A stretch of 22,981 nucleotides of DNA from a virus. The translations under genes were made by a program, and so were the position numbers. The DNA lies in the IMG/VR virus record IMGVR_UViG_3300021375_000168, positions 1 to 22,981 of that record; one strand, written 5' to 3'. Below the pieces are notes generated by a model. The model did not search any database. It was not told the DNA's origin and saw only the letters and a list, made by a program, of their open reading frames with translations. Below, in pieces: positions 878 through 15,085 of the stretch. The stretch's first letter is position 1, and each line of letters starts with the position of its first letter.

Positions 878-891
878 TAAATAGTCATATG
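878..891 (+). promoter_or_regulatory. Start-associated motif TAAATA-N5-ATG (37-aa ORF)
   Basis: TAAATAGTCATATG runs straight into the start of the small ORF. No Shine-Dalgarno is seen. The TAAATAGTC core is the same as that before the tape measure gene at 11425. Confidence 0.5.
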
Positions 892-1002
892 GACGACTAT
901 GACTTCGCGGTGTTGGCGCTGGAGCGCATTCTTGACGCGATCGACAAGCTGATCGACGCCGCCGAGAATATTGTTGATGCGCTGCCCGGCGCGGATGCCT
1001 GA
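889..1002 (+). CDS. Small 37-residue protein, first gene of the packaging operon
   Basis: The ORF starts MDDYDFAVLALERILDAIDK and ends with ALPGADA. It is acidic, with a heptad-like pattern of Leu, Ile and Val, so a single amphipathic helix is likely. Evidence that it is real: it begins at a copy of the TAAATA start motif shared with known structural genes, and its stop overlaps the HNH gene start by eight bases (ATGCCTGA), giving tight translational coupling. I do not recognise a family. Possible roles are a leader that delivers ribosomes to the HNH gene or a small partner of packaging proteins; both are guesses. Confidence 0.5.
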   Translation: MDDYDFAVLALERILDAIDKLIDAAENIVDALPGADA

Positions 1003-1354
1003 CCTTCCCCGCATTCTCGGCCAGCGTCGCGGCAAGCAATCCATCGGCGGCAGCGCCACCCTGCGTGATCATAGCCGAGCCTATCGCCGACTGTGTGCCT
1101 CGATCCTCGATGCCGAGCCATTGTGCCGATATTGTCGCGCGGAAGGGCGGATCAGCCCAGCCAAGCTGATCGACCATGTCTTTGCGCTGTCGTTGGGCGG
1201 GAGCAATGACCGATCCAATCTCGCCCCAGCCTGCGTGGACTGCAACGCGGCCAAGGCGGTGGCGGAGCAGCGTTTCGTGGCACGGGGATATGACGTGCGG
1301 GATGTGATGTTTGAACCCGAATTGGCAGGTTGGGTCAAAAAGGCGCAAACATAA
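995..1354 (+). CDS. HNH endonuclease (phage packaging-associated type)
   Basis: The protein has 119 residues. The zinc-binding ββα-metal core is clear: CRYC (Cys44, Cys47), the catalytic DH (Asp60-His61), Asn75, and CVDCN (Cys80, Cys83, Asn84). This is the small HNH type found immediately before terminase genes in HK97-like phages; HK97 gp74 is known to assist the terminase in cutting at cos. The chosen ATG at 995 overlaps the stop of the 37-residue ORF; an in-frame ATG at 971 would add eight residues unlike the family. All key residues are present, so activity is expected. Its substrate is inferred from position. Confidence 0.85.
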   Translation: MPDLPRILGQRRGKQSIGGSATLRDHSRAYRRLCASILDAEPLCRYCRAEGRISPAKLIDHVFALSLGGSNDRSNLAPACVDCNAAKAVAEQRFVARGYDVRDVMFEPELAGWVKKAQT

Positions 1355-1394
1355 AGAAGGTTACGCTTGGAATTGCGCGTTGATCGGGCGACAT

Positions 1395-1419
1395 ACGCCT
1401 CTCAAATATAGAGAGGTGT
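1395..1419 (+). promoter_or_regulatory. Hairpin masking the ribosome binding site of the HNH_2 gene
   Basis: ACGCCTCTC (1395-1403) pairs with GAGAGGTGT (1411-1419) over nine base pairs, one of them G-U, with a seven-base AT-rich loop. The 3' arm contains the Shine-Dalgarno GAGAGG (1411-1416) five bases before the ATG at 1422. In RNA this would hide the site and lower or gate translation. The pairing is seen directly; the effect is inferred. Confidence 0.5.
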
Positions 1420-1421
1420 TC

Positions 1422-2075
1422 ATGCGCGTTAGTCTTGATCAGGTGAAAGAAGCAGTCGATGAAGCCCGTGGTCTTACCGATGACCAACTGCGGGTAGAGG
1501 CGAAGAGCGGCCGTTCGCGGTCGTATTTCATCATGGATCGCCAGCGGCCGCTTCCGATGAAGGCGATTGTGCGGTTGGCCTACATCAGGGCAAACATCAA
1601 ATGGGATGGGCCGCAATCTCTCGCTGTTGCCAACGCGCTCAGGGGAACCTTCGACATCCTGCATTCGGTTGCGGAAGTCGAACAGGAGCGTTTGGATCGT
1701 CAGCGCGAGAACGTGGAGCGGTGGAAGCGCGATGGCAAATTCCGGGCGGCGCTGCTCGATCTGTTTGGTTCTGCCTGTGCGATCAGTGGATGTAAGGTGC
1801 TGGATGCAATCGACGCATCACATATCCTCGGTGTTGCTGACGAAGGCGATGACGACGTGACCAACGGCTGGATCATCCGCACCGATCTTCACCGGCTGTT
1901 TGATGTGTGGCTGATGTCTATCGATCCGGCCACCGGTCGTGTCCACATATCGCCTGATTGCATGGACAGCTATGCCGAATTCGATGGTCGGACAGTGACG
2001 CTGCCCAAGGGAGCGGCTTCTCTGTCTGATTTCGCACTGCATTGGGCAGAATTTCAGAAGCGGAACGCAGCGTGA
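1422..2075 (+). CDS. HNH_2-type endonuclease-like protein
   Basis: The protein has 217 residues. The N-terminal half (1-110) is charged and helical with a coiled-coil-like stretch (about 84-105). The C-terminal half carries an HNH_2 pattern: CAISGC (Cys119, Cys124), ASHI (His134), NGW (Asn148-Gly149), and DLHRLFD (His157, Phe160, Asp161), as in the nuclease domains of many restriction-like and phage proteins. The frame is open upstream to 1311, but that would overlap the HNH gene and add a low-complexity basic tail. The ATG at 1422 has a clear GAGAGG. It follows the HNH gene by 67 bases. It could be a second packaging helper or an accessory nuclease acting against other DNA; the sequence does not settle this. 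Confidence 0.75.
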   Translation: MRVSLDQVKEAVDEARGLTDDQLRVEAKSGRSRSYFIMDRQRPLPMKAIVRLAYIRANIKWDGPQSLAVANALRGTFDILHSVAEVEQERLDRQRENVERWKRDGKFRAALLDLFGSACAISGCKVLDAIDASHILGVADEGDDDVTNGWIIRTDLHRLFDVWLMSIDPATGRVHISPDCMDSYAEFDGRTVTLPKGAASLSDFALHWAEFQKRNAA

Positions 2076-2106
2076 TCCATTTTGCATAAATAATATCGAA
2101 CGCAAC

Positions 2107-2136
2107 AGCCGGGGTGATCAGTTGTTCGCCCCGGCT
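2107..2136. terminator. Strong hairpin after the HNH_2 gene (terminator-like, no U-run)
   Basis: AGCCGGGG (2107-2114) pairs with CCCCGGCT (2129-2136), with possible extension inward. It stands 31 bases after the HNH_2 stop and between convergent genes, a usual place for termination, but neither side has a T-run. The rest of 2076-2300 is AT-richer, holds an orphan TAAATA at 2087-2092 and a T7 run near 2205, and no gene that I can support. Confidence 0.35.
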
Positions 2137-2300
2137 TCACGAGGTCCGCATATAGGGGCGGGTAAAATCACAACGTACCAATATATGGGATAACCGCCTT
2201 TCAAGTTTTTTTCTGCGCGTGTTAATTAAAATTCGGGGCTGTCCGCTAGCGACCAGAAACTGCCATCTGGCACCCGATAATTAAATCCGAAAAGCTGTCG

Positions 2301-2609
2301 TTACCGTTGCGGTTCCCAGCCGTAGATAATATTTTTGAAGCCTGAGCGCTGTAATATGTAAATCACGCTTCCCAAGCAGCGGTAAGGAAGATTTTTTACG
2401 TCGCCATCAATCTTAGCAGTGTCTGTGACGCTTTTTTGCTCGGCGCTCAGCCTTCGAAGTTCATCGAACGAAATGTTATTCTCCGCCACCGAAATTTTGC
2501 AGGTGGGGTATGAGCCTCCAATGCGCACTGTAAATGGTGCGGTATTGAGATTGCCCGCATGCCCATCGGCAGCCGAAACGATCATCAGGAGAAATGCTGC
2601 TCTTTTCAT
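2301..2609 (-). CDS. Small exported protein, weakly ExbD/TolR-periplasmic-domain-like (moron)
   Basis: This is a 102-residue protein. Residues 1-18 (MKRAAFLLMIVSAADGHA) look like a cleavable signal peptide. The mature part has two cysteines (37 and 78) that could form a disulfide. The pattern ISFDELRRL, then a Asp-Gly-Asp segment and YRCLGSVIYILQRSGFKNI (76-94), recalls the periplasmic fold of ExbD/TolR, but no transmembrane anchor with the functional Asp is present. That likeness is weak and by eye only. The frame is open to 2807, but the ATG at 2609 gives the signal peptide; no strong Shine-Dalgarno is seen there. The gene is reverse-oriented between HNH_2 and small terminase, so it is probably independently expressed, perhaps from the lysogen. 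Confidence 0.5.
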   Translation of the reverse strand: MKRAAFLLMIVSAADGHAGNLNTAPFTVRIGGSYPTCKISVAENNISFDELRRLSAEQKSVTDTAKIDGDVKNLPYRCLGSVIYILQRSGFKNIIYGWEPQR

Positions 2610-2740
2610 GAGCAGTCTAGTCGTTCTGAACAGTGACACTTTGATGAATAGGTCATTGGCAGCCCCATGCTGAGTGTCCGCCAAGTCGCCTTCTCGACTC
2701 AAAAGCAGACAGTCGCATAACCACCCATGCCTGCCATCAA

Positions 2741-2755
2741 GATAATTACCTGATG
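2741..2755 (+). promoter_or_regulatory. Degenerate start-associated motif before small terminase
   Basis: GATAATTACCTGATG matches GATAAATATTGGATG (upstream of the connector gene) at 11 of 15 positions and ends in the start codon. It is the weakest member of the set and could be chance. Confidence 0.25.
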
Positions 2756-3163
2756 CAGAGAGGAAAGAAGCCCGCGACCGCCGCGCGCAAAAAGCTGGCC
2801 GGAACATATGCGAAGTCCCGCGACGATGTAAAAACCATCCTTGGCCCGATCGCGGATGAGACTGGGCCGATCATGCCGGAATGGTTGACGCCTGCGGCGC
2901 GGGAAGTCTGGGCTGTCGATATTGCTCGCGTCGTGGGCTGCGGCGCTACAGCGGCGGACTCCCATATGTTCGCGCTCTATTGCACGACCATGGCCGATTT
3001 CATTGCTTCGGTTCAATCTGGTGCGCCCCATAATGCCGCCTTCCGATCGGAGCTACGCAAACAGGCTGAAATGCTCGGCATCGCGGGTGCGAAGTCTCGC
3101 ATTAGTAAAATGCCACAGGACAGCGCGGCGAAGGCCAGCCCCTTTAGCGTTAGACAACGTTAA
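2753..3163 (+). CDS. terS: Terminase small subunit, P27-like
   Basis: The 136-residue protein binds phage DNA and recruits it to the large terminase. The N-terminus (MQRGKKPATAARKKLAGTYA) is the basic GRKPxP...KKLxGT type of the P27 small-terminase family. The middle (about 43-100) has the expected alpha-helical pattern with LTPAAREVW and a C-terminal helix ending near RISKMPQDS. Length and position before the large terminase fit. No good Shine-Dalgarno precedes the ATG; a degenerate start motif does. Unlike most HK97-like phages, the gene is separated from terL by about 630 bases holding a reverse-oriented lipoprotein gene. Its stop lies inside the 3138-3169 hairpin. Confidence 0.75.
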   Translation: MQRGKKPATAARKKLAGTYAKSRDDVKTILGPIADETGPIMPEWLTPAAREVWAVDIARVVGCGATAADSHMFALYCTTMADFIASVQSGAPHNAAFRSELRKQAEMLGIAGAKSRISKMPQDSAAKASPFSVRQR

Positions 3164-3179
3164 AGGGGCGATGCCCCTT
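3138..3179. terminator. Three-arm inverted repeat between convergent terS and lipoprotein genes
   Basis: Arm A (3138-3151, GCCCCTTTAGCGTT) pairs with arm B (3156-3169, AACGTTAAAGGGGC) over 14 bp with one G-U and an AGAC loop. Arm B's AAGGGGC (3163-3169) also pairs perfectly with arm C (3173-3179, GCCCCTT). The two hairpins exclude each other. The terS stop is within arm B and the lipoprotein stop touches arm C. There is no U-run, so bidirectional termination is plausible but unproven. Confidence 0.45.
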
Positions 3180-3708
3180 ATGTCTGAGGCAATTGTGCGG
3201 TTTCGATCTGCCGCAGGAATTCCTCAATGTTCGCCTGAACGGAGCGACTACCCGATTTGCGAGCACGATTGACGCCCACATAGTCAGACGCGCCACCATT
3301 GGTCTGGATTTTGGTCGAGTAAACTGTCTGTCCGGTATTGCGGTCGACCAATTCGTAGGTTGCAGTCGTCGCCGCTTTGTATCCCAAGCTCTGGATATCC
3401 AGTTCCAAGATTTTGACGATCAGGGACAGCTTGCGCGGGGAATCGTCGCGAAACAGAGCTATGCGAACGAGCGCATCGTCCAATGTGCTTTTCCAAAGGC
3501 TGGCAACGTCGGCTTCCGCGCCTGCGGTGTTCATCTTGCCGGTTTGCTCTTCTTTGGATGCCACTGTTACGTTGGTCGAAATCAGTGCAGCGTCGAGCCT
3601 ATGAGCGCTGCGAGCAACGTTCGACGGCGTGAAGTTAAGCGGCGCGGCCGAGCAGCCGGTCAAGAGAACTGCACTTGCAAGGCAAAGGATATTCAACTTG
3701 GACTTCAT
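3178..3708 (-). CDS. Predicted lipoprotein, reverse-oriented moron inside the packaging module
   Basis: The 176-residue product starts MKSKLNILCLASAVLLTGC: a short basic n-region, a hydrophobic stretch and a lipobox LTGC with Cys19 as the lipidated residue. Ser at +2 favours outer-membrane sorting. The mature part has features seen in YajG/DUF4136-like lipoproteins (a Trp-Lys-Ser plus LDDALVRIALF helix, then alternating strands with LVDRNTGQTVYST), but I cannot name its family. The start at 3708 is chosen over 3726 because of a GGGGGG Shine-Dalgarno right before it and the signal peptide. It lies opposite to terS and terL, so it is likely transcribed by its own promoter from the 3709-3790 gap. 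Envelope lipoproteins from prophages often modify the lysogen surface or block superinfection; that role is only a possibility here. Confidence 0.75.
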   Translation of the reverse strand: MKSKLNILCLASAVLLTGCSAAPLNFTPSNVARSAHRLDAALISTNVTVASKEEQTGKMNTAGAEADVASLWKSTLDDALVRIALFRDDSPRKLSLIVKILELDIQSLGYKAATTATYELVDRNTGQTVYSTKIQTNGGASDYVGVNRARKSGSRSVQANIEEFLRQIETAQLPQT

Positions 3709-3780
3709 AATCCCCCCAATTGGCAAAGTAACCGTGGGTCGGATTGCATAACCATGTCACGATCGCAACTGCCTTCGCCC

Positions 3781-3793
3781 TAAATAATGGGTG
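3781..3793 (+). promoter_or_regulatory. Start-associated motif TAAATA-N4-GTG (terL)
   Basis: TAAATAATGGGTG ends in the GTG start of the large terminase. It is the only member of the set that uses GTG and it does not overlap an upstream stop codon, so its conservation is not explained by a stop. Confidence 0.5.
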
Positions 3794-5461
3794 AAAGCAA
3801 AACGATATCCCAAAGGCTCCTATGCGTGGCGCGCGATCGAATATGCCAAGCGCGTCACCACTGGCAGAATCCCCGCTTGCTGGCAGATACGCGCTGCCTG
3901 CCAGCGCACCCTTGATGACCTCAAGCGCACCGACCTGATTTTCAGTGTCGACCACGTCGACCATGCCTGCGGTTTCTATGAGGCGCTGGTCCACATCAAA
4001 GGAAAGTGGGCCGGGCAGCCATTCCTGCTTGCCGATTATCAAGTTTGGATGGTGGCCAATATCTTCGGCTTCCTCAACGCCGATGATGGCTTGCGGCGAT
4101 TTCGCGAGGCGTTCTGCCTGCTTCCGCGTAAAATGGGGAAGTCTGCCTTCGCATCCGCCACCGGCCTCTACATGGCCTTTGCCGATGGGGAGGCGGGCGC
4201 GGAAACCTACTGCGGCGCGACCAATCTCGCACAGGCCAATGAGGTCTTCCGCCCGGCGCGCCTGATGGCGCAGCAATCGCCCGGCTTCATCGATGCCTTC
4301 GGCGTGGAAGTGATGGCGAAATCCATTTTCGTAGAAGCGACCGGCCAGTTCTTCAGTCCAGTCATTGGCAAAACGAAGGATGGCTCTAGTCCGCACTGCG
4401 CCATCGCTGACGAACTTCATCAGGCGGTCGACGACACCCAGATACAGGCGTTCCGGACAGGTATGGGCGCGCGCCAGCAGCCGCTGCTACTCATGATCAC
4501 TACTGCCGGGTTCAATCTTGCGGGTGTCTGCCGCACCGAACAGTTGGCGGCCGAAAGCGTCCTGCGCGGTGACATCATCGACGACCGGGTCTTTGTCGCG
4601 ATCTACACCATCGACGCTGATGATGACTGGCGCGATTTCAATAGCTGGATCAAAGCCAATCCCGGCCTCGACATATCGGTCAGCGAAAAATTCCTGCGCG
4701 ACACCTTGGCTAAGGCGCTTCAATCCCCGGCCAATGCTGCTGCCGCGCGCACGAAGCACCTGAACGAATGGATCGCGTCAGCGGCCGGATGGCTGAACCA
4801 GCACGACTGGCGGAACGCTGCCGATGTATCCCTGTCCTATGATGCGCTCAAAGGCGCGCCTGCATGGATCGGCGTCGATATGTCGACCAAGCAGGATTTG
4901 ACGGCGATCAGCGTGGTCGTCCAGCTACCCGATGATCGTCGCGCCATTCTGCCGTTCTGCTTCTTGCCGCAGGGTGCAATCGACGGCAGTCGCAATTCCA
5001 CCGCCTACGCGAGTTGGATGTCGTCGAACGACCTGATCGTCACAGATGGGGCGGCAAGTGACTTCGTCGAAATCGAAGCCCAGTTGTCCAAGCTGGTGGA
5101 TCATTTCGATGTCCAGATGATCGTTTTTGATCAATGGCAGGGCGAGAACAGCCGCCAGCAGTTTGCTGCACAGGGCTGCGAAACTTCAATCTGGCAGGCC
5201 AACAATCGTGGCGCATGGACGGTCGCGATGGATGATTTCGAAGCGGACCTGAAAAACGGGAAGTTGGTGCATCCCGACAATGGGGTGCTGAATTGGTGCG
5301 CGGCCAATATCTGCGCCAGCCTCAAGGGGGTGACCCGCATTCCGGTGAAACCTCACAATGACCAGAAGATCGACGCGATGGTAGCCGCGCTTATGGCGCA
5401 TGCTGCGTCCAATATCATCCCTGTGCCAGTAACAGCGCCGACCATCGAATGGTTCGACTAA
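3791..5461 (+). CDS. terL: Terminase large subunit (ATPase-nuclease packaging motor)
   Basis: The 556-residue protein drives DNA into proheads and cuts genome ends. N-terminal ATPase: Walker A-like LPRKMGKS at 111-118, Walker B CAIADE at 203-208 with the catalytic Glu, and the coupling motif MITTAG at 235-240. C-terminal RNase-H-like nuclease: GVDMSTKQDLTAI around 357-369 with the first Asp, MIVFDQWQ around 440-447, and DQKIDAMVAA near 525-535 supplying further acidic residues. This is the HK97-type (Terminase_1) architecture and the length is normal. Start GTG at 3791 directly follows the TAAATA motif; no Shine-Dalgarno is seen. The stop TAA forms part of the next start motif for the portal gene. 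Confidence 0.95.
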   Translation: MKAKRYPKGSYAWRAIEYAKRVTTGRIPACWQIRAACQRTLDDLKRTDLIFSVDHVDHACGFYEALVHIKGKWAGQPFLLADYQVWMVANIFGFLNADDGLRRFREAFCLLPRKMGKSAFASATGLYMAFADGEAGAETYCGATNLAQANEVFRPARLMAQQSPGFIDAFGVEVMAKSIFVEATGQFFSPVIGKTKDGSSPHCAIADELHQAVDDTQIQAFRTGMGARQQPLLLMITTAGFNLAGVCRTEQLAAESVLRGDIIDDRVFVAIYTIDADDDWRDFNSWIKANPGLDISVSEKFLRDTLAKALQSPANAAAARTKHLNEWIASAAGWLNQHDWRNAADVSLSYDALKGAPAWIGVDMSTKQDLTAISVVVQLPDDRRAILPFCFLPQGAIDGSRNSTAYASWMSSNDLIVTDGAASDFVEIEAQLSKLVDHFDVQMIVFDQWQGENSRQQFAAQGCETSIWQANNRGAWTVAMDDFEADLKNGKLVHPDNGVLNWCAANICASLKGVTRIPVKPHNDQKIDAMVAALMAHAASNIIPVPVTAPTIEWFD

Positions 5462-5471
5462 ATATTGGATG
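5459..5471 (+). promoter_or_regulatory. Start-associated motif TAAATA-N4-ATG (portal)
   Basis: TAAATATTGGATG begins with the stop codon of terL and ends with the portal ATG. It is identical over 13 bases to the copy before the connector gene at 8578. Confidence 0.6.
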
Positions 5472-6674
5472 GGATTCTGGACAAAAACATGGGACTGGCT
5501 GACTGACGTCGAAACGAAATCGTCACTGCCACCGACGCGTTCTGCGGAGGAAATCCGCAAAGATATTATCGCTGATCAGCGCGCAGACCTGAACGCAGCG
5601 GTCAGCGCGGTCTTTGGTTGCGCACGCGTCATCGCCGAAGGGCTGGCGTTGCCGCCCTGTTATGTGACGAGGGATGGCGAGCATGCGCCCAAGCATTCGC
5701 TCTATTCTCTGCTCAACGCATCGCCCAATGATCTCCAGACCGCATACGAATTCCGGGAAATGCAGGGCTATCACATGGCCCTAGACGGCAATGCATATAG
5801 TTGGCTCAATCGCGCACCGGACGGCGACATCCTCGAAATCTTGCCGCTTGATCCGCACTATGTGCAGGTCGTGCCGACCTCATCCCGGCTCGGCACGCAG
5901 GTCAAATATTTCGTGTTTGGTGTGGAGATGCCAGCCAATGAAATTTGGCACCAGAAAGGCCCGGCGACCAAGGATCATACCGGTCTATCTATGCTCGATC
6001 AGGCCCGGACTGCGATCAAACTGGCGCGGCATCAGGAAGAATATGGCGCGAAATTATTTGAGAACGGCGCACGTCCGGCGGGTCTTCTCACCACGAACGG
6101 CACATTGACGCCCGAACAACGCGCAGACCTCAAGAGGTCGTGGGAGCAGCAGTATAGCGGCACCGGCAATGCGCATAAGACCGCGCTTCTCACCGGTGAC
6201 TTCCAATACCATCCGCTGGGGTCAACCGCCAATGAGGCCCAGTTCATCGAAGCCCGGAAGTTTCAGATTGAGGAAATCTGCCGGTTCTTCCGCGTCAGCC
6301 CTACCAAGCTGTTCCACAACGCTGGCAGCCAATCCTATGCCAGCGTCGAGCAGGCCCACATTGCCCATGATGCCGACACAGACGCGCATTGGCACACCCG
6401 TTTCGTCCAGTCGGCCAACAAGACGCTGCTGACGCAGAAGGAGCGCGCGCAAGGTTATCAGATCATCCTTGATAACCGTGATTTCCTGCGCGGAACCGCT
6501 GTTGAGCGGATGCAGTATTACCAGATTGGTCGGGCGATCGGCGTCCTGTCCGCCAACGAAATCCGCGAGATGGAGGGTTTCGAGCGCAGCGCTGATCCGG
6601 CGGCCGATCAGCTTGCACCAGCGGCCAACCTCTTCGGCGGCAACGACGGCGGCGCAGACCGACCGTCTGCATAA
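5469..6674 (+). CDS. Portal protein, HK97 type
   Basis: The 401-residue protein forms the dodecameric ring at the capsid vertex through which DNA enters. Recognisable features include the early AVSAVFGCARVIAEGLALPP helix, the EFREMQGYHMALDGNAYSW segment, EILPLDPHYVQV, the LSMLDQARTAIKLARHQEEY helix, GLLTTNGTLTPEQRADLKRSW, and the QIEEICRFFRVSPTKLFH stretch, all typical of the HK97 gp3 portal family. The length is normal, and the last 25 residues are Ala/Pro/Gly-rich. It is placed between terL and the prohead protease as expected. The start uses the TAAATA motif with no Shine-Dalgarno; the TAA stop starts the next motif. Confidence 0.93.
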   Translation: MGFWTKTWDWLTDVETKSSLPPTRSAEEIRKDIIADQRADLNAAVSAVFGCARVIAEGLALPPCYVTRDGEHAPKHSLYSLLNASPNDLQTAYEFREMQGYHMALDGNAYSWLNRAPDGDILEILPLDPHYVQVVPTSSRLGTQVKYFVFGVEMPANEIWHQKGPATKDHTGLSMLDQARTAIKLARHQEEYGAKLFENGARPAGLLTTNGTLTPEQRADLKRSWEQQYSGTGNAHKTALLTGDFQYHPLGSTANEAQFIEARKFQIEEICRFFRVSPTKLFHNAGSQSYASVEQAHIAHDADTDAHWHTRFVQSANKTLLTQKERAQGYQIILDNRDFLRGTAVERMQYYQIGRAIGVLSANEIREMEGFERSADPAADQLAPAANLFGGNDGGADRPSA

Positions 6675-6685
6675 ATATCGTCATG
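6672..6685 (+). promoter_or_regulatory. Start-associated motif TAAATA-N5-ATG (prohead protease)
   Basis: TAAATATCGTCATG: the first three bases are the portal stop and the last three the protease start. The gap is five bases rather than four. Confidence 0.5.
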
Positions 6686-7402
6686 GAAATAAAAACGCTT
6701 TCGGGCCGGATTGAAATCAAGGCTGTCGATGATGGCGAGATGACCTTCACTGGTCTCGCTGCCCATTACAACAATGTCGATGGTTACCGCGATATCGTGC
6801 TGCCGGGTGCTTTTGCCGCCACGATGACCCAGCATGATGCCGCCGCTACCAAGCCTGCGATGCTCTGGAACCATGATGCAAAGGCGCTGCCGATTGGTGT
6901 CTGGATCGACTGGGAAGACAGCGAAGAAGGTCTCAAGATGACCGGGCACTTCCTTGATACGCAGGCGGGTCGGGATGCCTATCAGGCCGTCAAGTCCGGC
7001 GCGGTCAATGGTCTGTCGATCGGATACACGACCGTCGATTTCGAAATTATCCGCGAAGATGGCCGCACGATCCGCCATCTGAAGGCGGTTGACCTTTGGG
7101 AGGTCAGTGTCGTGACCTTTCCCGCAAACCCACTAACCCGAATTTCCGAAGTTAAGGAGAATATCTTGCCCGATAATGACGATGATCTTGGTGCAGCTTT
7201 TGATGCGCTGATGAAACAGGTTGAGACGCTGAAGCTGCGCTTGGTGCCGCCCGCTAGTCCGGATGATGAAGCGAAGGTCGAGGATGTCGAAGAAGATATC
7301 GATGAACCGTCCGAAGAAACTGAGAAGGAAGCTAAATATCTTGCGGCAATTGAGGCCGTAAAAACCTTGCGTCTGAAATTGCAACAGGAGAACCATGGAT
7401 AA
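6683..7402 (+). CDS. Prohead protease, HK97 family
   Basis: The 239-residue protease removes the N-terminal scaffolding domain of the capsid protein during head maturation. Family motifs: GLAAHYNNVDGYRDIVLPGAF (24-44), LWNHDAKALPIG with the likely catalytic His64, GAVNGLSIGY with the likely nucleophile Ser112, and DLWEVSVVTFPANP (around 137-150). After about residue 160 the protein has an extension rich in Asp and Glu, ending in a helix, which may act as additional scaffold; this is inferred from composition. Its end overlaps the capsid gene start by eight bases. An in-frame TAAATA (7333-7338) in this gene may serve the capsid gene. Confidence 0.93.
   Translation: MEIKTLSGRIEIKAVDDGEMTFTGLAAHYNNVDGYRDIVLPGAFAATMTQHDAAATKPAMLWNHDAKALPIGVWIDWEDSEEGLKMTGHFLDTQAGRDAYQAVKSGAVNGLSIGYTTVDFEIIREDGRTIRHLKAVDLWEVSVVTFPANPLTRISEVKENILPDNDDDLGAAFDALMKQVETLKLRLVPPASPDDEAKVEDVEEDIDEPSEETEKEAKYLAAIEAVKTLRLKLQQENHG
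7386..7390 (+). promoter_or_regulatory. Shine-Dalgarno of the capsid gene
   Basis: AGGAG stands four bases before the capsid ATG, within the end of the protease gene. It contrasts with the genes started by the TAAATA motif, which have no such site. Confidence 0.6.
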
Positions 7403-8510: not shown

Positions 8511-8533
8511 GCGGTTCATCTCCGATGGATGGG

Positions 8534-8568
8534 GCAGGGGTCGGATGCGTTCCGGCCCCTGCTTTTTT
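8534..8568 (+). terminator. Intrinsic terminator after the capsid gene
   Basis: A 12-bp stem (8534-8545 with 8551-8562, including one G-U pair) with a five-base loop is followed by six Ts (8563-8568). This is a textbook Rho-independent terminator, 23 bases after the capsid stop and nine bases before the next TAAATA motif. It would limit read-through from the abundant capsid message into the connector genes. Confidence 0.85.
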
Positions 8569-8577
8569 GTGCGCAGA

Positions 8578-8590
8578 TAAATATTGGATG
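8578..8590 (+). promoter_or_regulatory. Start-associated motif TAAATA-N4-ATG (connector)
   Basis: TAAATATTGGATG follows nine bases after the terminator's U-run and ends in the connector ATG. A gene placed behind a terminator needs transcription of its own, which is why this copy best supports a promoter role. Confidence 0.6.
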
Positions 8591-9052
8591 ACCACCGTTG
8601 TCCGCACCTCACCTCCTTCATTTCCGGCCGTATCGTCGGCCCAGCTTCGCGAATGGCTGCGCCTCGACCCTGATGTCGATCAGGCGACCCTAGACCTACT
8701 GCTTGGCGCGGCCGTCGACCATATCGCTGGGCTGACAGGCCTGTATGTCGTGTCGGCGGAATACGCGGTCAGCTTCGCCGCCACCGGCTGCTATTCACTT
8801 CCGATCAGCAATATCACGCAGACCGAGGCAGGTGCAGTCGTCGGCGGTAACCTCGAAATAGAAGTTGAGGCGGTTCCGCTGGTCGTATCAATCAGCGCGG
8901 GCTGGACCACCGAAGAAGCCATCCCCGTAGCCTTACGCCACGCCATCGCCATCTATGTTGGCGCTGCATATGATAGCCGTCACGACATCAGCGAAGCCAC
9001 ATTTGCGACCATCAAGCGTCTGTGCGCGCCCTTCATCCGGGTGGCGCTGTGA
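8588..9052 (+). CDS. Head-tail connector, HK97 gp6-like
   Basis: The 154-residue protein belongs to the gp6/gp15-like adaptor family that forms a ring below the portal. Visible features are the N-terminal helix [35 protein letters not shown] (18-52), a beta-rich middle ([33 protein letters not shown]) and a C-terminal helix pair ([18 protein letters not shown]). The frame is open further upstream to 8429 within the capsid gene, but the ATG at 8588 follows both the terminator and the start motif and gives the right length. The stop overlaps the GTG start of the next gene. Confidence 0.82.
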
Positions 9053-9372
9053 AGATCGACGCGGGCGCGCTGGATCGACGCATCGACATTATGACCCAGA
9101 CCACTGTGCGCGATGCGGCTGGTCAGCAGCGCTCGACATGGATGGTCACGGCCTCGACATTTGGTCAACGGCTGGAACTGCGGACCACGGATGTCGCCCG
9201 CAGCGCTGGTAAAGTGACGGTCCCGGCTGGGCGCTATCTCATCCGCTACCGCACCGGCCTATCGACCGCCAATCGTGTCCAGATCGACGGCCAGACCTAC
9301 GCCATCACCGCGATTGATGAGCCTGATCGCCGCACCACGATGGTCCTGACCGTCGAGGGGGTGAGCGCATGA
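9049..9372 (+). CDS. Head closure / head-tail joining protein (Phage_H_T_join-like)
   Basis: The 107-residue protein fits the SPP1 gp16/HK97 gp7-type stopper family. It begins (V/M)[21 protein letters not shown], continues with a GQQRSTWMV strand and [18 protein letters not shown], and ends in the [21 protein letters not shown] barrel strands, all typical of this small beta-barrel. GTG at 9049 overlaps the previous stop (GTGA), preferred over an ATG at 9022 that would sit inside the connector gene. The stop overlaps the next ATG, so translation is coupled. In the particle it closes the channel after packaging. Confidence 0.8.
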
Positions 9373-9818
9373 CCATCAGCGTGACCACGACCGGGTTCGC
9401 CGCGCTGGAAGCGCGCATGCGTTCGCTGTCCAACGATGTCGCCACCAAGATTGGGCAGTCGGCCAACCGTGCTGGTGCGGTCGTGATCGCGAAGAAGATC
9501 AAGGAAACCGCGCCCATCGGCCCGGATGCCGAAGGCTCTACCCGCAACCGGAAGCGCAAAAACGGCACGGTCGTGCAGGAGGCGCACACCAAGATCGTCA
9601 ACAACATCAAGGTGCGCAAGGTCCGCGCCGAGTCCGGCAAAGTGGTCAATGCGATTGTGGTCGGCCGGGATGCCTATCACGCCAGCATGGTCGAATTTGG
9701 GTCGATCCATAATGCCCCCAATCCATTTTTCCGCACTGGCTTTGCGCTTGCGAGCGAGGATGCAGTTGATCGCGTGCGGGCCATTCTGGATCGACGGCTG
9801 TCGAAAGCGGGGGGCTGA
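9369..9818 (+). CDS. HK97 gp10-like tail completion protein
   Basis: The 149-residue protein has the HK97-gp10 pattern: an N-terminal helix ([39 protein letters not shown]), a basic loop with [11 protein letters not shown], strands with [20 protein letters not shown], and [26 protein letters not shown]. The GSxxxPxPFxRPAF-like ending is highly characteristic. ATGA overlap with the stopper gene places it in the same coupled group. The family helps terminate or complete the tail. Confidence 0.85.
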
Positions 9819-9820
9819 CG

Positions 9821-10180
9821 ATGTTGGAAACCGCTCTCGTCACCTATCTCTCGCACCTTGCGCCGGACATGTATCCGGGGCGCGCGCCCACCAACTACGA
9901 CACGCCCGCCGTCATTTATAATCGTCTGTCCACCCAGATGGAGGATGACCTCGACGGCGTTGGCGACATGGGCTGGGTCGTCATGCAGATCGATGTCTAT
10001 GACCCGTCATATTTGGCGGCGAAAGAATTGGCGCATGATATCCGTGATCATCTGGTCATCTGGGATGATGAACAGGTGCATGCTGTTACCGTCGTCAATG
10101 AAACCGATATGATCGATGAGACAACAGAGACGACTTTATATCGCGTCATGATGACGTTCCTGTTCTTCGCGGCCATCTGA
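9821..10180 (+). CDS. Tail terminator-like protein (DUF3168)
   Basis: The 119-residue protein starts MLETALVTYLSHLAPDMYPG, followed by a PAVIYNRLSTQMEDDLDG segment, the strand WVVMQIDVYDPSYLAAKELAHDIRDHL, and an ending of TLYRVMMTFLFFAA. This matches DUF3168/lambda gpU-like tail terminators, which cap the tail tube and join it to the head. A G-run just before the ATG serves as Shine-Dalgarno, two bases after the previous stop. It ends 70 bases before the tail tube gene. Confidence 0.78.
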   Translation: MLETALVTYLSHLAPDMYPGRAPTNYDTPAVIYNRLSTQMEDDLDGVGDMGWVVMQIDVYDPSYLAAKELAHDIRDHLVIWDDEQVHAVTVVNETDMIDETTETTLYRVMMTFLFFAAI

Positions 10181-10202
10181 CCGGCGGTCACGCCTGCCTG
10201 AA

Positions 10203-10242
10203 TAAATACTCCGTAACGCGCAGATTTGCGCACATTATGGAG
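10203..10242 (+). promoter_or_regulatory. TAAATA plus hairpin masking the tail tube ribosome binding site
   Basis: TAAATA (10203-10208) is followed at once by CTCCGTAA (10209-10216), pairing with TTATGGAG (10235-10242, one G-U). Inside it GCGCA (10218-10222) pairs with TGCGC (10227-10231) around a GATT loop. The Shine-Dalgarno GGAG (10239-10242) is in the outer arm, eight bases before the ATG. Translation of the tail tube would need this hairpin to open. The pairing is read from the sequence; regulation is inferred. Confidence 0.55.
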
Positions 10243-10250
10243 TTTATCTT

Positions 10251-10670
10251 ATGGCTAATGGCGCAATGCTCGCGCGCAAGACGCGACTTGAAGTAAAGGA
10301 TGGGGAAAATTGGATTCAGGTGAAAGGGTTCAAGGACTTTTCCGGCCTTGGCGGCGGTTCGGCCGCTGTTGTGGATGTCAGCGATCTCGATTCTGATGCC
10401 AAGGAAAAGCTGATCGGCCTGCCGGATGAGGGCCAGATTTCCATTTCGCTCAACTATATCGAAAGCGATCCGGGGCAGCAGTTTCTGGAAGAGGCGCGCC
10501 TGTCTGGCGAACTGATCGACGCCCGCATCGTCATGCGTAACAATAAGGCTTTCGCCTACAGCGCTGCTGTCCTGACCTTCGAAAAATCGGGTGGTGTGGA
10601 TGCGGTTCTGGCTGGCACTGTGGGCATGGAAATCAGCGGTCTTGTGACCAAGGTTACGGTCACGCCCTGA
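10251..10670 (+). CDS. Major tail tube protein
   Basis: The 139-residue protein has the beta-rich pattern of siphophage tail tube proteins: MLARKTRLEVKDGENWIQVKGFKDFSGLGGGSAAVVDVSDLDSDAKEKLIGLPDEGQISISL without long helices, a short helix QFLEEARLSG, and a C-terminal VLTFEKSGGVDAVLAGTVGMEISGL. It stacks around the tape measure protein to form the tail tube. It is in the expected place just before the G/GT chaperone. It has a GGAG Shine-Dalgarno, unusual in this operon, and a structured leader. Its stop TGA overlaps the next ATG (TGATG). Confidence 0.82.
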   Translation: MANGAMLARKTRLEVKDGENWIQVKGFKDFSGLGGGSAAVVDVSDLDSDAKEKLIGLPDEGQISISLNYIESDPGQQFLEEARLSGELIDARIVMRNNKAFAYSAAVLTFEKSGGVDAVLAGTVGMEISGLVTKVTVTP

Positions 10671-11086
10671 TGGCCAAGCTGAACAAGGAAGCGATCCTTG
10701 CGGCGGCAAAGCCGAAGGTTCGCGAGGTCGAAGTCGAGGAATGGGGTGTGCGTCTCAATGTCCGGGCGCACACCCTGCGGTCGCGGCTGGCGCTGCTCGA
10801 TGCCGATACGGTCAATGCCGACGCAGTCGAAGAATATGAGCGCGATCAGGCGCTGCCCGACGATGAGCGAACCGGCGTCGCGAAGGTCGAGCGTTTCGAC
10901 CCGGCGATCATCAACTTCATCCACTCTATCGTCGATGAAAATGGCGATCAGCTTTTTGACCTCACCGATCATGACCGCTTTCGTGACCTGTCCTACGCCA
11001 CACTGGTTTCGATCCATCTGGCGATCCAGCAGGTCAATGAGGTCAAACCAGTCAGCTTCACCGATCTAAAAAAAAATTCCGACTGA
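10670..11086 (+). CDS. Tail assembly chaperone, short form (lambda gpG analogue)
   Basis: This is the 138-residue unshifted product. The first part, MAKLNKEAILAAAKPKVREVEVEEWGVRLNVRAHTLRSR, is the usual N-terminus of this chaperone family in HK97-like phages; the rest is helical and ends in LKKNSD, right after the nine-A slippery run. In lambda-type phages this protein coats the tape measure and recruits tube subunits and is absent from the finished tail. Most ribosomes stop at TGA 11084-11086; a fraction shift back one base and make the long form. Start ATG overlaps the tube gene stop. Confidence 0.82.
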   Translation: MAKLNKEAILAAAKPKVREVEVEEWGVRLNVRAHTLRSRLALLDADTVNADAVEEYERDQALPDDERTGVAKVERFDPAIINFIHSIVDENGDQLFDLTDHDRFRDLSYATLVSIHLAIQQVNEVKPVSFTDLKKNSD

Positions 11087-11427
11087 ATCCCGAGCGGCGG
11101 TTCCTCTTCCGCCTCGCTCTGGCACTGGGGCGGACGGTCGAGGAACTGTCCGCCACCCTTTCCGACGATGAACTGACCGAATGGATGGCCTTCTATGATG
11201 TGGAGCCGTTCGGCTGCGCGGTTGAGGATGATCGCGCCCGTCACATCGTTTCAATTCTCTTCAATGCCTATGACGGCAAAAACGAACCGAATTGGTTTGA
11301 TCGTGATCCCGATTGGACTGCTGAATTGCGACGCCGTGCCGCGCCGACTGCCGATGAACTGGAAGACAGGATCGACGCATTCTTCTCGGCGAAGCTCACC
11401 GGACAAGATAGCCCATCGGCCAGCTAA
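10670..11427 (+). CDS. Tail assembly chaperone, -1 frameshift fusion (lambda gpGT analogue)
   Basis: If the ribosome slips back one base on the A-run (11068-11076), translation continues through KKKFRLNPERRFLFRLALAL and GRTVEELSATLSDDELTEWM to the stop at 11425, giving a 252-residue fusion. The segment GRTVEELSATLSDDELTEWMAFYDVEPFG is the characteristic T domain, and it has no start codon of its own before 11185, where an ATG would cut off most of the domain. Both facts argue for frameshifting. The T part binds the tube protein in lambda. The frame is coded as joined 10670-11074ish and 11074-11427. Confidence 0.8.
11068..11119 (+). promoter_or_regulatory. Programmed -1 frameshift site with downstream hairpin
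   Basis: Nine As (11068-11076) after CT, read CTA AAA AAA AAT in frame 0, contain A AAA AAA and A AAA AAT heptamers. About 14 bases after it GAGCGGCGG (11092-11100) pairs with CCGC (11109-11112) and CGCTC (11115-11119), leaving a two-base bulge. The frame-0 stop is at 11084-11086, and the -1 frame is open to 11427. Confidence 0.8.
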
Positions 11428-11437
11428 ATAGTCGATG
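11425..11437 (+). promoter_or_regulatory. Start-associated motif TAAATA-N4-ATG (tape measure)
   Basis: TAAATAGTCGATG: TAA is the stop of the GT fusion and ATG the start of the tape measure. The gap sequence is GTCG, as in the first copy at 878 (GTCAT), unlike the TTGG/TGGG copies. Confidence 0.55.
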
Positions 11438-13801
11438 GCAGACCTCGGCACACTTACCGTCAATATGGCGCTCGAAGCGGCGCAATTCATCAATGGAATG
11501 CGGCAGGCGGCCGCGCAATCGCAGGCCACGAACAAGGCGATTGCCTCGGCTATGGATGGCGCAAAGAAGGCGGTCGGTGGCCTGATCGCGGTTATGTCGA
11601 TCGACGCCTTCGTTTCCGCCTCAAAGGCCGCTTTCGATTATGCCGACGATATCGTTGACCTTGCCGATCGAACCGGTGCGACGACCAAGTCGATTCAGGA
11701 ACTCAGATATGCGGCCCAAATGACAGGCAGCGATTTTGCGTCTGCCGATGGTGCGCTGGAGAAATTCGCCAAGAATCTGGGAACGGCACAATCGGGCGGT
11801 AAGGCGATGGGCGAGACGTTCAAAAATCTCGGTGTTACTTCATCGGACTTCGATGCCGCCCTGCGCCAGACCATAGAAGGCATCAGTAAGTTGCCATCGA
11901 CCAGCCAGCGCAATGCCGCTGCGCTTGAGGTATTCGGCAAATCGGCGGGAACCCTCACTGCCCTGATGGGCGAGGGGGCCAAGGGGTTCGAAGAATTCGC
12001 GGAAAAGGCCGATGAGCTTGGCGTCGTGCTGGGCGATGACCTGTTGCGCAACGCTGGTCAGATCAACGATCGGCTCGATACGCTCAAGATGACCTTGGAC
12101 GCGCGATTTGCTTCCGCGATCGTCCAAAACGCTGACGCTATCGGCAATCTTGCGGATCAGGTCATCAAGATCGCGGGCGCTATGGCGCAATTCTGGTCGC
12201 AAAATCCTACCGCAGCCATGGGAATCATGGGCGCGCTGGCCGGTGGTCTGGCGGGCGGCTGGGTTGGTGGTCTGCCCGGCGCTCTGGGGGGCGCTGTCGC
12301 GGGTGGCGTCGGTGGCGCAGTGCTCGGCTACAATAGCCGTGGGGAGCGGAAGAAACTGACCAGCGAACGGGCCGATCTTGTTGCGGCCAATGATGAGCAG
12401 ATGCCTGTGTGGTCGCTGTTCGGTGATTACCCTCTGTTGCCGAAGAATTCAGAGCAGCGGAAAAAGAACGACGCGCGGATCAAAGCCATCGACGCTCGCC
12501 TTGCCGCAATGACCAAGGAAGAGACGGCAGCAGCGAAATTGCTGGCCGGTGGCGGCGACAGCGGCGGCACGCTTCCCCCCATATCAGGCGGCAAGAAATC
12601 CGGCGGAAAATCGGCCGCTGACCTTGCCAAGGAAGCGCGCCAGCGCCTGTTTGCCTATGACTCCGACATCGACGCGGCCAATGTCAGTCTGCTGTCGGCC
12701 AAGCAGTCGCTGACCAGCGATATCACCGAGCAGTCGGCGCTGGAGCGCGAGATGCTGACGATCGAAAGCAATCGCCGCAAAGCTGCAATCGATCAGGATG
12801 CCCTCGATGGCAAATATACGCAGGCACAGGCGGACGCGCTCAAGGCGCTCGAAGACAAGGTCGTTTTCGCCAAATATGACCTCGTCAACCAGCGCGAAAA
12901 TGAGGAGTTGGCGCGCCAGCAACTGGCAATAGGTCAGGCCGGATTGTCCAATGATATGGACCTGCTGTCGTCGCAATCGGGGCTGGCTCGATCGCAGGCC
13001 GATCGTCGCGCCATCAGCCTGCGCCTCTTGGACCTACAATATCAGCAGGAGCGGTTGGCGCTCGATGCGATCCTCGCCAGCAAGACCAGCACTGACGCGG
13101 AAAAGCAGATCGCGCAGGCACGCCTTGACGTTCTGGACCGTCTCAAGGCCAATGATGCGGCAGGTATCCGGCGCGACACGATGTCGCCCATGGGAGTCTA
13201 CCTCGACGGTATCCCGCGCACCGGTGACGAAATCCGCGAGAGTATGGAGAGTGCCGCCGTTGACGGGCTGGGTTCGCTCAATGCCGGGCTGAAAGAGGCG
13301 ATCAAAGGCACGGGATCGCTGGCTGATGCCTTCGATGCGATGGGTGACCGGATCATCGACAAGATCATGGATATTGCGCTCCAACAGGCCATCTTGGCAC
13401 CGATCGGCAGCCTGTTTGGATCACTGCTCGGCTCTATTACTGGATCGATCGCAGGCGGCGCAGGCGGCGGCGATATCGTCATGGGTGGCGGCTTCACTTC
13501 GTTCATGAGCGGCGCGCGCGCCAATGGCGGCTTGACCCGTGCAGGTGCCTATCTGGTTGGCGAGCGTGGGCCGGAAATTGTCAACGTGGGCAACACGGCC
13601 AACACGATCCCGACCCATGCGCTTGCCAGCGTGAGGGGCGGAGCGCGATCCGGGCCGGTTATCTCGATCGGCAATATCACGTCGAATGACCCGGCCATGG
13701 TGCGAGCGATGGTCTATCAGGGGATCGCGGAAGCTGCGCCGATGCTGACCAAGTTCGGCACGGACAACACGATGTCAAAACTGCGGAGGCCGTCACTCTG
13801 A
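11435..13801 (+). CDS. Tape measure protein
   Basis: The 788-residue protein sets tail length; at about 1.5 angstrom per residue it would give a tail near 118 nm. The N-terminus (MADLGTLTVNMALEAAQFINGMRQAAAQSQ) is typical of lambda-H-like tape measures. Features: helical N-terminal domain to about 255, a glycine-zipper membrane-like segment at about 262-300 (MGIMGALAGGLAGGWVGG and on), charged helical coiled-coil part at about 400-590 rich in Gln, Lys and Asp, and a C-terminal domain with GSLADAFDAMGDRIIDKIM, a Gly-rich helix, and the conserved GGLTRAGAYLVGERGPEIV (about 698-716). Gene position after G/GT and size are normal. Confidence 0.92.
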   Translation: MADLGTLTVNMALEAAQFINGMRQAAAQSQATNKAIASAMDGAKKAVGGLIAVMSIDAFVSASKAAFDYADDIVDLADRTGATTKSIQELRYAAQMTGSDFASADGALEKFAKNLGTAQSGGKAMGETFKNLGVTSSDFDAALRQTIEGISKLPSTSQRNAAALEVFGKSAGTLTALMGEGAKGFEEFAEKADELGVVLGDDLLRNAGQINDRLDTLKMTLDARFASAIVQNADAIGNLADQVIKIAGAMAQFWSQNPTAAMGIMGALAGGLAGGWVGGLPGALGGAVAGGVGGAVLGYNSRGERKKLTSERADLVAANDEQMPVWSLFGDYPLLPKNSEQRKKNDARIKAIDARLAAMTKEETAAAKLLAGGGDSGGTLPPISGGKKSGGKSAADLAKEARQRLFAYDSDIDAANVSLLSAKQSLTSDITEQSALEREMLTIESNRRKAAIDQDALDGKYTQAQADALKALEDKVVFAKYDLVNQRENEELARQQLAIGQAGLSNDMDLLSSQSGLARSQADRRAISLRLLDLQYQQERLALDAILASKTSTDAEKQIAQARLDVLDRLKANDAAGIRRDTMSPMGVYLDGIPRTGDEIRESMESAAVDGLGSLNAGLKEAIKGTGSLADAFDAMGDRIIDKIMDIALQQAILAPIGSLFGSLLGSITGSIAGGAGGGDIVMGGGFTSFMSGARANGGLTRAGAYLVGERGPEIVNVGNTANTIPTHALASVRGGARSGPVISIGNITSNDPAMVRAMVYQGIAEAAPMLTKFGTDNTMSKLRRPSL

Positions 13802-13814
13802 TAAATATGGGATG
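13802..13814 (+). promoter_or_regulatory. Start-associated motif TAAATA-N4-ATG (distal tail)
   Basis: TAAATATGGGATG is preceded by the tape measure TGA (13799-13801), giving TGATAAATATGGGATG. This 16-base string is repeated exactly before the DUF6950 gene at 15070-15085. Confidence 0.6.
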
Positions 13815-14420
13815 CCTTCCTATCCCATATCATTTCCGCCGGTTACGCCAAATTCCGAACGGTTGGCGCTTAACCGTCGTCAGGCCGCGATTACTTCAAC
13901 ATTTTCGCTCGTCCAGCAGACCGTCAACACCGCGAGCCAGTGGCTGCTGACATGGACATGGCCGCAGATGATGCAGCCGAAGGCCGAGAGCGTTCGGGCT
14001 TGGCTCAATTCGTTGCGCGGGCAGGTTGGCACTTTCCGTTATGCACCTCGGCAGGCGATCAAATCCACGCTGACCGGCCGCACGGTCGCCGAAACTGCCT
14101 ACGCCTATAATAACTCAGCGCGCATCGGCGGATGGTCAGCCAATGCAGCGAGCCAGCTTCGCCTCGGTCAATATTTTCAGATCGGCCCACAACTCTTCGA
14201 AATCACGTCGGCACCAGCGAGCGCAGACGCCAATGGCCGCTGCCTGATCGAATTCGAACCGGCGCTTCGCATGTCATATGCGGTTGGGACGGCCGTCGAA
14301 CTTGCCAATCCCGTTGGGCTGTTTCGCCTTAACATCAGCGATGGTCAAACCTACACCCTGTCACCGGGCGCATTGGCCGAATTTGGCACCATCACCGCGA
14401 CGGAGGCAGTGGAGGGATGA
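13812..14420 (+). CDS. Distal tail-like protein
   Basis: The 202-residue protein occupies the first slot after the tape measure, where distal tail (Dit) proteins of alphaproteobacterial phages and gene transfer agents stand. The sequence begins MPSYPISFPPVTPNSERLAL and contains LTWTWPQMMQPKAESVRAWLNSLRGQVGTFRYAPR, a style common in minor tail proteins of this class, then Asn/Ala-rich strands and a beta-rich end (LISDGQTYTLSPGA-like). Fold and role are inferred from place and composition; I do not recognise the exact family. Its stop overlaps the next ATG, with GTGGAGGG just before. Confidence 0.6.
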   Translation: MPSYPISFPPVTPNSERLALNRRQAAITSTFSLVQQTVNTASQWLLTWTWPQMMQPKAESVRAWLNSLRGQVGTFRYAPRQAIKSTLTGRTVAETAYAYNNSARIGGWSANAASQLRLGQYFQIGPQLFEITSAPASADANGRCLIEFEPALRMSYAVGTAVELANPVGLFRLNISDGQTYTLSPGALAEFGTITATEAVEG

Positions 14421-15069
14421 GGCCCAATATTACGCAGGAAATCCGTGACGCGCTGGCTGCGCAAGGAATCACGACCGCCTATATGGCGCGCTTGGACTTT
14501 GCCAGTGGGACCGTGTGCGCATGGACTGGCGCGCATAGTATCGAGGTCCAGAGCAGTGCCGATAGCCTGCTGAACGGCCAGACCTTCCACCCGATCCAAG
14601 CAGGGATCATGGTCCAGATCGGCGATAATAGTTTCTCCTATAGCGGCTCGGAATCGCTCGATATCCATTTGGCTTGCCGTCATCGGTCCCGGCTGAAATT
14701 GAGGCGGCATCGGTCATTCCTTCCGAATATCAGGGACGGTCTGCTACCTTGTGGCGGGCGCTGTTGATCCAACCGGGTGGACTAGCCGAACCGCACTGGG
14801 TCTTTCGTCGCATACGAGCGGGAACCATGGATACGGTCGAAGTCAGCGGAGACGGGCAATCGCGCCTGTTCAAACTGACGATCGAATCCCACGCGGGCAT
14901 GATCAGCAATGCGACCCAGTCGACATATCTGGATCAGCCTAAATTTGATCCCAATGACCGGTCGCAGGAATACGCGCCCACCATCGCCAATGGCGATGAC
15001 TTGATGAAGCGGCCAGCCACGGGCTGGGCGGCGCTTCAGCAAACCTTCGAACGCTGGGCAGATCGGTAA
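14417..15069 (+). pseudogene. Tail hub-like gene (DUF2163/lambda L type) split by a frameshift
   Basis: Two overlapping frames, 14417-14767 and 14674-15069, look like one protein. Frame 1 reads MRPNITQEIRDALAAQGITT to YSGSESLDIHLA and then degenerates into Arg-rich shadow sequence; the second frame takes over as LPSSVPAEIEAASVIPSEYQ and runs through ATLWRALLIQPGGLAEP and LFKLTIESHAGMISNATQST. It has no good start of its own: a TAG at 14641 limits it upstream and only a TTG at 14674 fits. Restoring one base around 14672-14674 would give DIHLALPSSVP and a 217-residue protein of the right size for a tail hub. No slippery heptamer is seen, so a real one-base deletion or a sequencing error is likelier than programmed shifting. 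The family name is by position and overall look. Confidence 0.6.
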
Positions 15070-15072
15070 TGA

Positions 15073-15085
15073 TAAATATGGGATG
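15073..15085 (+). promoter_or_regulatory. Start-associated motif TAAATA-N4-ATG (DUF6950)
   Basis: TAAATATGGGATG, preceded by TGA (15070-15072), is an exact copy of the string before the distal tail gene. Confidence 0.6.

Follow-up and report, generated by a model that had tools for sequence, protein, structure and literature searches.

A TAAATA element of putative T4-late promoter type, often followed by a hairpin, precedes the late genes of a clade of temperate phages

Introduction

The stretch of viral DNA analysed here, an IMG/VR record of 22,981 bases referred to as the window, is a fragment and not a whole genome, and it raises the question of why the hexamer TAAATA recurs a few bases upstream of the start codons of its phage genes. 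An initial annotation, made from the sequence alone, proposed either a promoter element of a phage factor that yields leaderless mRNAs or a translation signal acting by reinitiation after the stop codon embedded in the hexamer.

Similar sequences are known as late promoters. The T4 late promoter reads TATAAATA at positions −13 to −6, with a first T that is poorly conserved in T4 relatives, and that of phage Aeh1 is CTAAATA, starting at −12 (PMC1524935); the cyanophage late promoter is NATAAATA (PMC2984593). In T4, an RNA structure conceals the start of genes e, soc, 49 and I-TevI in the longer transcripts, and late transcripts, which are devoid of the 5' part of this structure, are well translated (PMC3014915).

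Occurrence of TAAATA in the window

A hexamer scan of the window found 11 copies of TAAATA on the plus strand and 0 on the minus strand, whilst shuffled versions hold a mean of 1.9 over both strands (maximum 6), so that about two would be expected by chance. The pattern TAAATA-N3..6-ATG occurs seven times against 0.15 expected, and the large terminase gene terL, which starts with GTG (TAAATA-N4-GTG, 3781/3791), supplies the eighth copy located 4 or 5 bases (N4 or N5) 5' of a start codon. The initial annotation had proposed a random-chance test, and these shuffles show that the number of copies is not expected by chance.

All of the copies it named are present, including an orphan copy at 2087, a degenerate copy (TAATTA-CCTG-ATG) ahead of the small terminase gene terS at 2743, and two copies that share the 16-mer TGATAAATATGGGATG, at 13799 and 15070. 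Its statement that the motif heads eight genes holds for the start-adjacent copies, but is an undercount that missed those at 7333 and 10203; likewise, "start-associated" describes the dominant N4 and N5 spacings, but not the conserved copies for the major capsid and major tail genes, which lie 48–62 nt upstream. The observation is thus real and larger than was stated. The hairpins described below, which are the unusual part of the system, had not been seen.

Conservation in related phages

Using a portal profile, 80 loci were gathered. The portal matches include the Sphingomonas prophages L001 (G001) and L002 (G002), whose portal proteins are 47–48% identical to that of the window, and the viral contigs L003 and L004, for which the figure is 96%. 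At a portal identity of at least 43%, the longer loci contain 6–10 sense-strand copies of TAAATA-N4/5-RTG (expected <0.15), and loci at 41% or less contain 0–2. Locus L043 (G410) is the exception to this identity rule, having the motif at the same genes with spacings of 4 to 81 nt, several of them with a Shine-Dalgarno sequence.

In two Sphingomonas genomes, 15/17 and 16/18 of the TAAATA-N4/5-RTG copies fall within one prophage contig stretch, and across 399 Sphingomonadaceae genomes the pattern is rare, with a background equal to that of a reversed-pattern control. The signal therefore belongs to the phage clade and not to the host, and a host sigma factor or host-wide signal was rejected on the same grounds, the prophage regions of G001 and G002 also giving no Sigma70_r2 match. 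The phage family is temperate, and at least some of its members live in Sphingomonas. A literature search for a TAAATA motif in Sphingomonas phages found nothing.

In the late regions of the clade, TAAATA is both the most over-represented hexamer (z 14.0; the next scores 8.0) and the most strand-biased, with about 156–165 sense copies against 4 antisense. As judged from this sense enrichment and from counts per gene, it is confined to late (structural and lysis) genes; the endolysin copies lie on the other strand in G001 and G002. The initial annotation had suggested a motif search in related prophages, and TAAATA does recur at the same orthologous gene starts across the clade. A more distant prophage remnant (G090:C11:491688-499906), with a terL about 30% identical, also keeps TAAATA-N4-GTG at terL.

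Sites in the late gene region

Gene identities in the window were confirmed with PHROGs, and gene specificity was counted as TAAATA within 120 nt upstream of the gene start across the clade. The first site (878..889, plus strand, as are all features of this section) is a TAAATA-N5-ATG at a 37-residue ORF leading into an HNH endonuclease gene, and carries a hairpin, GTCATA (884-889)/TATGAC (898-903), that is found in the same form in the close relative G003. The degenerate terS copy (TAATTA-N4-ATG, 2743..2755) is the exact TAAATACTGGATG in L003 (7272), and the terL copy lies at 3781..3793; TAAATA is found upstream of terS in 16/19 and of terL in 16/21 cases in the clade. In the window, minus-strand genes at 2301-2607 and 3178-3708 flank terS, which isolates both terS and terL from transcription coming from upstream, and terL, being preceded by a minus-strand gene, needs a promoter of its own.

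At the portal gene (TAAATA-N4-ATG, 5459..5471; 21/21 relatives) the first TAA of the motif is the terL stop codon. The head maturation protease follows (TAAATA-N5-ATG, 6672..6685; 22/23), and within its gene another copy (7333..7338; 22/23) lies 62 nt 5' of the major capsid gene, which in the window has its own Shine-Dalgarno sequence at 7386-7390. An intrinsic terminator 3' of the capsid gene (8531..8568; fold −28.2 kcal/mol, z −4.7) has a T-run that ends 9 nt before the TAAATA of the head-tail adaptor gene (TAAATA-N4-ATG, 8578..8604; 23/23), a layout common to the relatives. The adaptor site is predicted to fold into a hairpin, TGGATGAC (8585-8592)/GTTGTCCG (8597-8604).

The copy for the major tail protein (10203..10253; 23/23) lies 48 nt 5' of its gene, with a hairpin, CTCCGTAA (10209-10216)/TTATGGAG (10235-10242), whose 3' arm is the Shine-Dalgarno sequence (fold −18.2 kcal/mol, z −4.1). 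TAAATA-N4-ATG is then found at the tape measure gene (11425..11437; 21/21), at the distal tail gene (13802..13827; 18/18), where TGGGAT (13808-13813) pairs with ATCCCA (13822-13827) (fold z −4.2, with covariation), and at a DUF6950-type gene (15073..15099; 13/14), where TGGGATGC (15079-15086) pairs with GCGTCCCA (15092-15099) (fold −14.5 kcal/mol, z −5.0). The tail terminator gene has the motif in 12/23 cases.

Genes coupled to their upstream neighbour had been said not to carry the motif, and across the clade it is indeed found in 0–1 of 13–23 cases at most such genes (Hc1 0/23, Ne1 1/23, tail chaperone 0/23, second tail gene 0/17 and fibre gene 0/13). The overall pattern resembles one element per transcription unit.

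Spacing and transcription start signals

Reducing site redundancy at 60% identity left 235 non-redundant sites, although orthologous sites are related, and independent sites are thus fewer than the raw counts. N4 spacing accounts for 100 and N5 for 51 of the 235. A Shine-Dalgarno sequence is present at 2/151 of these N4/N5 starts compared with 51/242 other starts, which bears out the initial description of motif-headed genes as having no clear Shine-Dalgarno. Both the spacing and this absence fit leaderless mRNA as the probable product.

In nearly all relatives, the copies that belong to the capsid and major tail genes are located at some distance 5' of the gene, which has a Shine-Dalgarno sequence, and copies upstream of genes with such a sequence are found at distances of 10–81 nt. 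A translation signal would be expected to hold a constant distance to the start, whereas a promoter is free to vary it. In most relatives a strong terminator is located 3' of the capsid gene, its T-run ending 9–11 nt upstream of TAAATA.

In the leadered copies, purines peak at offsets 5–7 after the motif (offset 6, 62/84, p 1e-5), and the first base after TAAATA is 46% purine and is not enriched. At N5 sites a pyrimidine precedes the A of the ATG in 46/51 cases (C/T 90%). The purine peak and the pyrimidine-purine step are indirect marks that suggest a transcription start. Three features count against a T4-type start or a leaderless reading: the N4 sites, the commonest class, have G and not a pyrimidine just before the ATG in 82% of cases, they place the A of the ATG one base nearer than the T4 start, and about a fifth of them start with GTG, while leaderless initiation usually prefers AUG.

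The base before TAAATA is C in 53% and A in 34% of sites. As C or A thus precedes it in 87% of sites, the element [C/A]TAAATA appears by sequence to be of the T4-late type. Further upstream, information is below 0.15 bits per position, and a clade-wide motif search for a conserved −35 gave weak signals only, extending to the clade the earlier remark that no common −35 is seen. The element is therefore a TAAATA core without a −35 box, comparable to the CTAAATA of Aeh1. A C-C preference at −22/−21 upstream of TAAATA in the clade is significant but small, and is unexpected for gp55, as this factor makes no −35 contact.

Hairpins after the motif

A stem starting 0–2 nt after TAAATA is present at 39% of N4 sites, compared with 8% of shuffled sequences and 10% of other starts. 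No such excess is seen at other offsets, and about 60% of N4 sites are without a strong hairpin. At many sites the hairpin buries the start codon or the Shine-Dalgarno sequence, and the arrangement in which it does so with its 5' arm lying between the putative promoter and the start was found in this subset of N4 sites. The same nesting is present at the endolysin start of the relative G404, TAAATA[GTCCAT]gcgta[ATGGAC].

The distal tail stem is kept in the relatives with varying sequence and conserved pairing (TCGGAT/ATCCGA, ATGGAT/ATCCAT, TCGGGT/ACCCGA and TTGGGT/ACCCAA), and even the first base of the start codon (ATG or GTG) is paired, its partner being the third base of a Tyr codon. Its covariation score is 0.271, against 0.135 ± 0.033 in shuffled alignments (0/500 as high) and 0.01–0.14 when slid.

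For N4 sites the start codon is predicted to be unpaired with a probability of 0.25 in read-through RNA (other starts 0.42; shuffled 0.40 ± 0.02) and of 0.70 when the RNA begins at the ATG. Since other starts also gain accessibility on truncation (0.42 to 0.62), the telling part is the excess hiding in read-through RNA. The major tail Shine-Dalgarno sequence is predicted to be unpaired at 0.00 in read-through RNA and at 0.44 when the RNA begins 5 nt 3' of the motif.

A candidate late factor

A weak Sigma70_r2 match in G404, a phage record of 33 kb whose morphogenesis module is of the siphophage type, led to a 247-residue gp55-family protein (G404:C1:23408-24151; L138:1048-1791). It matches PHROG_12791, 'sigma factor for late transcription' (E 9e-58), PHROG_234 (E 2e-21) and the gp55 structure 7d7c in the PDB (E 5e-9), and was aligned with ten family members. 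The gene lies within the phage, between the endolysin and replication genes, and its relatives among the matches listed are T4-like, cyanophage and jumbo phage records.

The presence of gp55 in all members was considered and rejected, as PHROG_12791, PHROG_234, a home-made gp55 profile and hhalign matched G404 only, that is, 1/18 clade records. The profile searches found no gp55 in the window, which is a fragment, in the 16 other phage records or prophages of the clade, several of which are also fragments (G003 and G407 among them; G001 and G002 are not), or in two whole host genomes. The hhalign search is a weak test, as the greedily built gene set it used would miss the G404 gene, and PHROG_12791 had no match in the 399 Sphingomonadaceae genomes, where a control likewise matched nowhere. 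With gp55 in one of 18 records, the late factor of most clade members must be a different one or have escaped detection. Sequence and context support membership of the element in the promoter family, and a gp55-type reader is putative for the phage of the window.

Eight clade phages share a conserved early protein of about 160 residues that belongs to no known family (G402, G403, G406, G409, G410, G414, the G002 prophage and the G090 remnant; e.g. L120:8435-8908, minus strand). It was tried as a late factor and rejected: its AlphaFold model is modest (pLDDT 73), with no significant fold match.

A model for hairpin-gated late transcription

We consider it probable that TAAATA is a promoter of the T4-late type from which transcription starts about 4–7 bases downstream, giving mRNAs that are leaderless or nearly so, with the hairpin silencing read-through RNA. 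The element [C/A]TAAATA would be recognised, without a −35 box, by an RNA polymerase bearing a late factor that the phage encodes and that belongs to, or resembles, the gp55 sigma family. At most late genes the start would fall at, or 1–2 bases from, the start codon, and at the capsid and major tail genes the transcript would have a leader with a Shine-Dalgarno sequence. We infer promoter activity from clade-wide conservation at fixed genes, the copies 10–81 nt upstream of Shine-Dalgarno genes, the terminators 9–13 nt upstream and the gp55 gene of G404, which together favour the initial proposal of a phage-factor promoter.

At many sites the spacer would double as the 5' arm of the hairpin covering the start codon or Shine-Dalgarno sequence. 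As this arm lies between the motif and the transcription start, it would be missing from the promoter's own transcript, so the hairpin would form only in read-through RNA from upstream, and promoter-started messages would be translated. That the hairpin keeps read-through messages untranslated is suggested by the folding predictions, and we hold it with somewhat less assurance than the reading as a whole.

The comparison that the initial annotation drew with T4 late promoters proves apt. Among T4-like phages, C/ATAAATA has been published as a variant of the late promoter. The clade shares with T4-type late promoters (gp55/gp33/gp45) the TAAATA core, the preceding C or A, the lack of a clear −35, a single element for each late transcription unit, an expected start about 5 nt downstream and, in G404, the sigma gene. 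It differs in that its genomes are small (25–41 kb), with a lambda-like siphophage-type morphogenesis module and occurrence as Sphingomonas prophages, in that its start codons lie 4–5 nt from the element, so that the mRNAs would be leaderless, and in that gp55 is not detected in most members. Element, hairpin and start region are nested much as in T4 e, soc, 49 and I-TevI, even at the G404 endolysin; however, the T4 late promoter lies within the 5' arm, whereas in the clade the spacer that separates promoter and start codon serves as this arm, and the device, documented for a handful of genes in T4, extends here to many late genes.

The start-associated sequences of cluster K mycobacteriophages, with which the motif had also been compared, are similar in being short conserved sequences just 5' of many starts in one phage group. 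They differ in sequence from TAAATA, which is also found far upstream of leadered genes. The leaderless promoters of mycobacteria, Deinococcus and alphaproteobacteria likewise have a −10-like box at a fixed short distance from the start codon. TAAATA differs from them in being specific to the phages, in its absence from the host genome and in its combination with hairpins.

Whether the whole clade of small temperate siphophage-type phages uses T4-style late transcription with leaderless, hairpin-gated mRNAs, mostly through a factor that is no longer, or never was, gp55-like, is in our judgement evenly poised. T4-type late transcription is known from large lytic myophages, where the gp55 family also occurred among the matches listed, and here the phages are temperate and of about 35 kb. 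If the model is true, they would offer a minimal form of the system that can be studied without the rest of T4, and through its hairpins a prophage would have a simple and general means of keeping leaked late-gene transcripts silent, with only those begun by the late factor being translated.

Alternative explanations

The motif could instead work in RNA, with UAAAUA and the hairpin forming a post-transcriptional site at each late cistron, without any promoter, where a bound phage protein represses or releases translation; MS2 coat, Mu Com and T4 RegA are proteins that act on such sites. This would account for a hairpin that follows the motif directly, covaries and buries the start codon or Shine-Dalgarno sequence, for pairing that matters only if the bases just after TAAATA are present in some RNA, and for the many members without a gp55 homologue. 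A hairpin operator should, however, show the reverse of what is seen, namely a hexamer that is almost invariant beside a hairpin that is absent or weak at most sites, and the copies just behind strong terminators, the purine peak of the leadered copies, the gp55 gene in one relative and the published late promoter CTAAATA also speak against an RNA operator, which we regard as unlikely. A promoter that starts immediately after TAAATA, as with a single-subunit RNA polymerase, would make the hairpin, which peaks 0–2 nt after the motif, the 5' end of the mRNA and a protection against decay. Its first transcribed base would be the one that lacks purine enrichment, with the purine peak only at 5–7, the mRNA would have its own start codon blocked by the hairpin that protects it, and no such polymerase was found among the early and late families of the searched records; we find this reading very improbable.

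Reinitiation or translational coupling through the TAA within the motif draws on the cases in which this TAA is the stop codon of the upstream gene (5459 and 6672 among them). Many copies have no in-register upstream stop, or are intergenic after a terminator (8578) or intragenic (7333), and others lie behind an opposite-strand gene (3781), 48 nt from the start (10203) or at no gene at all (2087); the coupled genes, moreover, practically never carry the motif. This half of the initial proposal is hardly credible. The remaining explanation, that base composition places TAAATA at AT-rich junctions by chance and nothing more is involved, is refuted by the shuffle tests, by gene-specific conservation at 43–57% portal identity and by the restriction of the signal to one clade.

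Other features

Orphan copies of TAAATA with no gene behind them are found at 2087..2092 (plus strand) in the window, where a strong hairpin (GCCGGGG.../...CCCCGGC) follows and no ORF, an arrangement kept in L003, as well as on the minus strand of G2, in G404 (24379), G406 (9631) and G415 (1277), and once more in the G090 prophage remnant. Several read TAAATA-GAA(T/G)GTG and run into strong hairpins, and the G404 copy has a terminator about 110 nt on; such copies could possibly produce small RNAs from the same promoter. At L043:17338-17400, ATC seems to be where the tail fibre gene starts; it follows a good Shine-Dalgarno sequence as well as TAAATA and a hairpin, and is a possible non-standard start codon.

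The second tail gene (PHROG_2048), a single ORF of about 220–230 residues in the relatives, is split in the window (14417-15069) into two overlapping frames, 14417-14767 and 14674-15069, owing either to a mutation that shifts the frame or to an error in the sequence. The tail assembly chaperone ORF has a run of nine A near its end (11068-11076), and a second ORF without its own start signal follows, an arrangement that resembles the programmed frameshift usual in tail chaperone genes.
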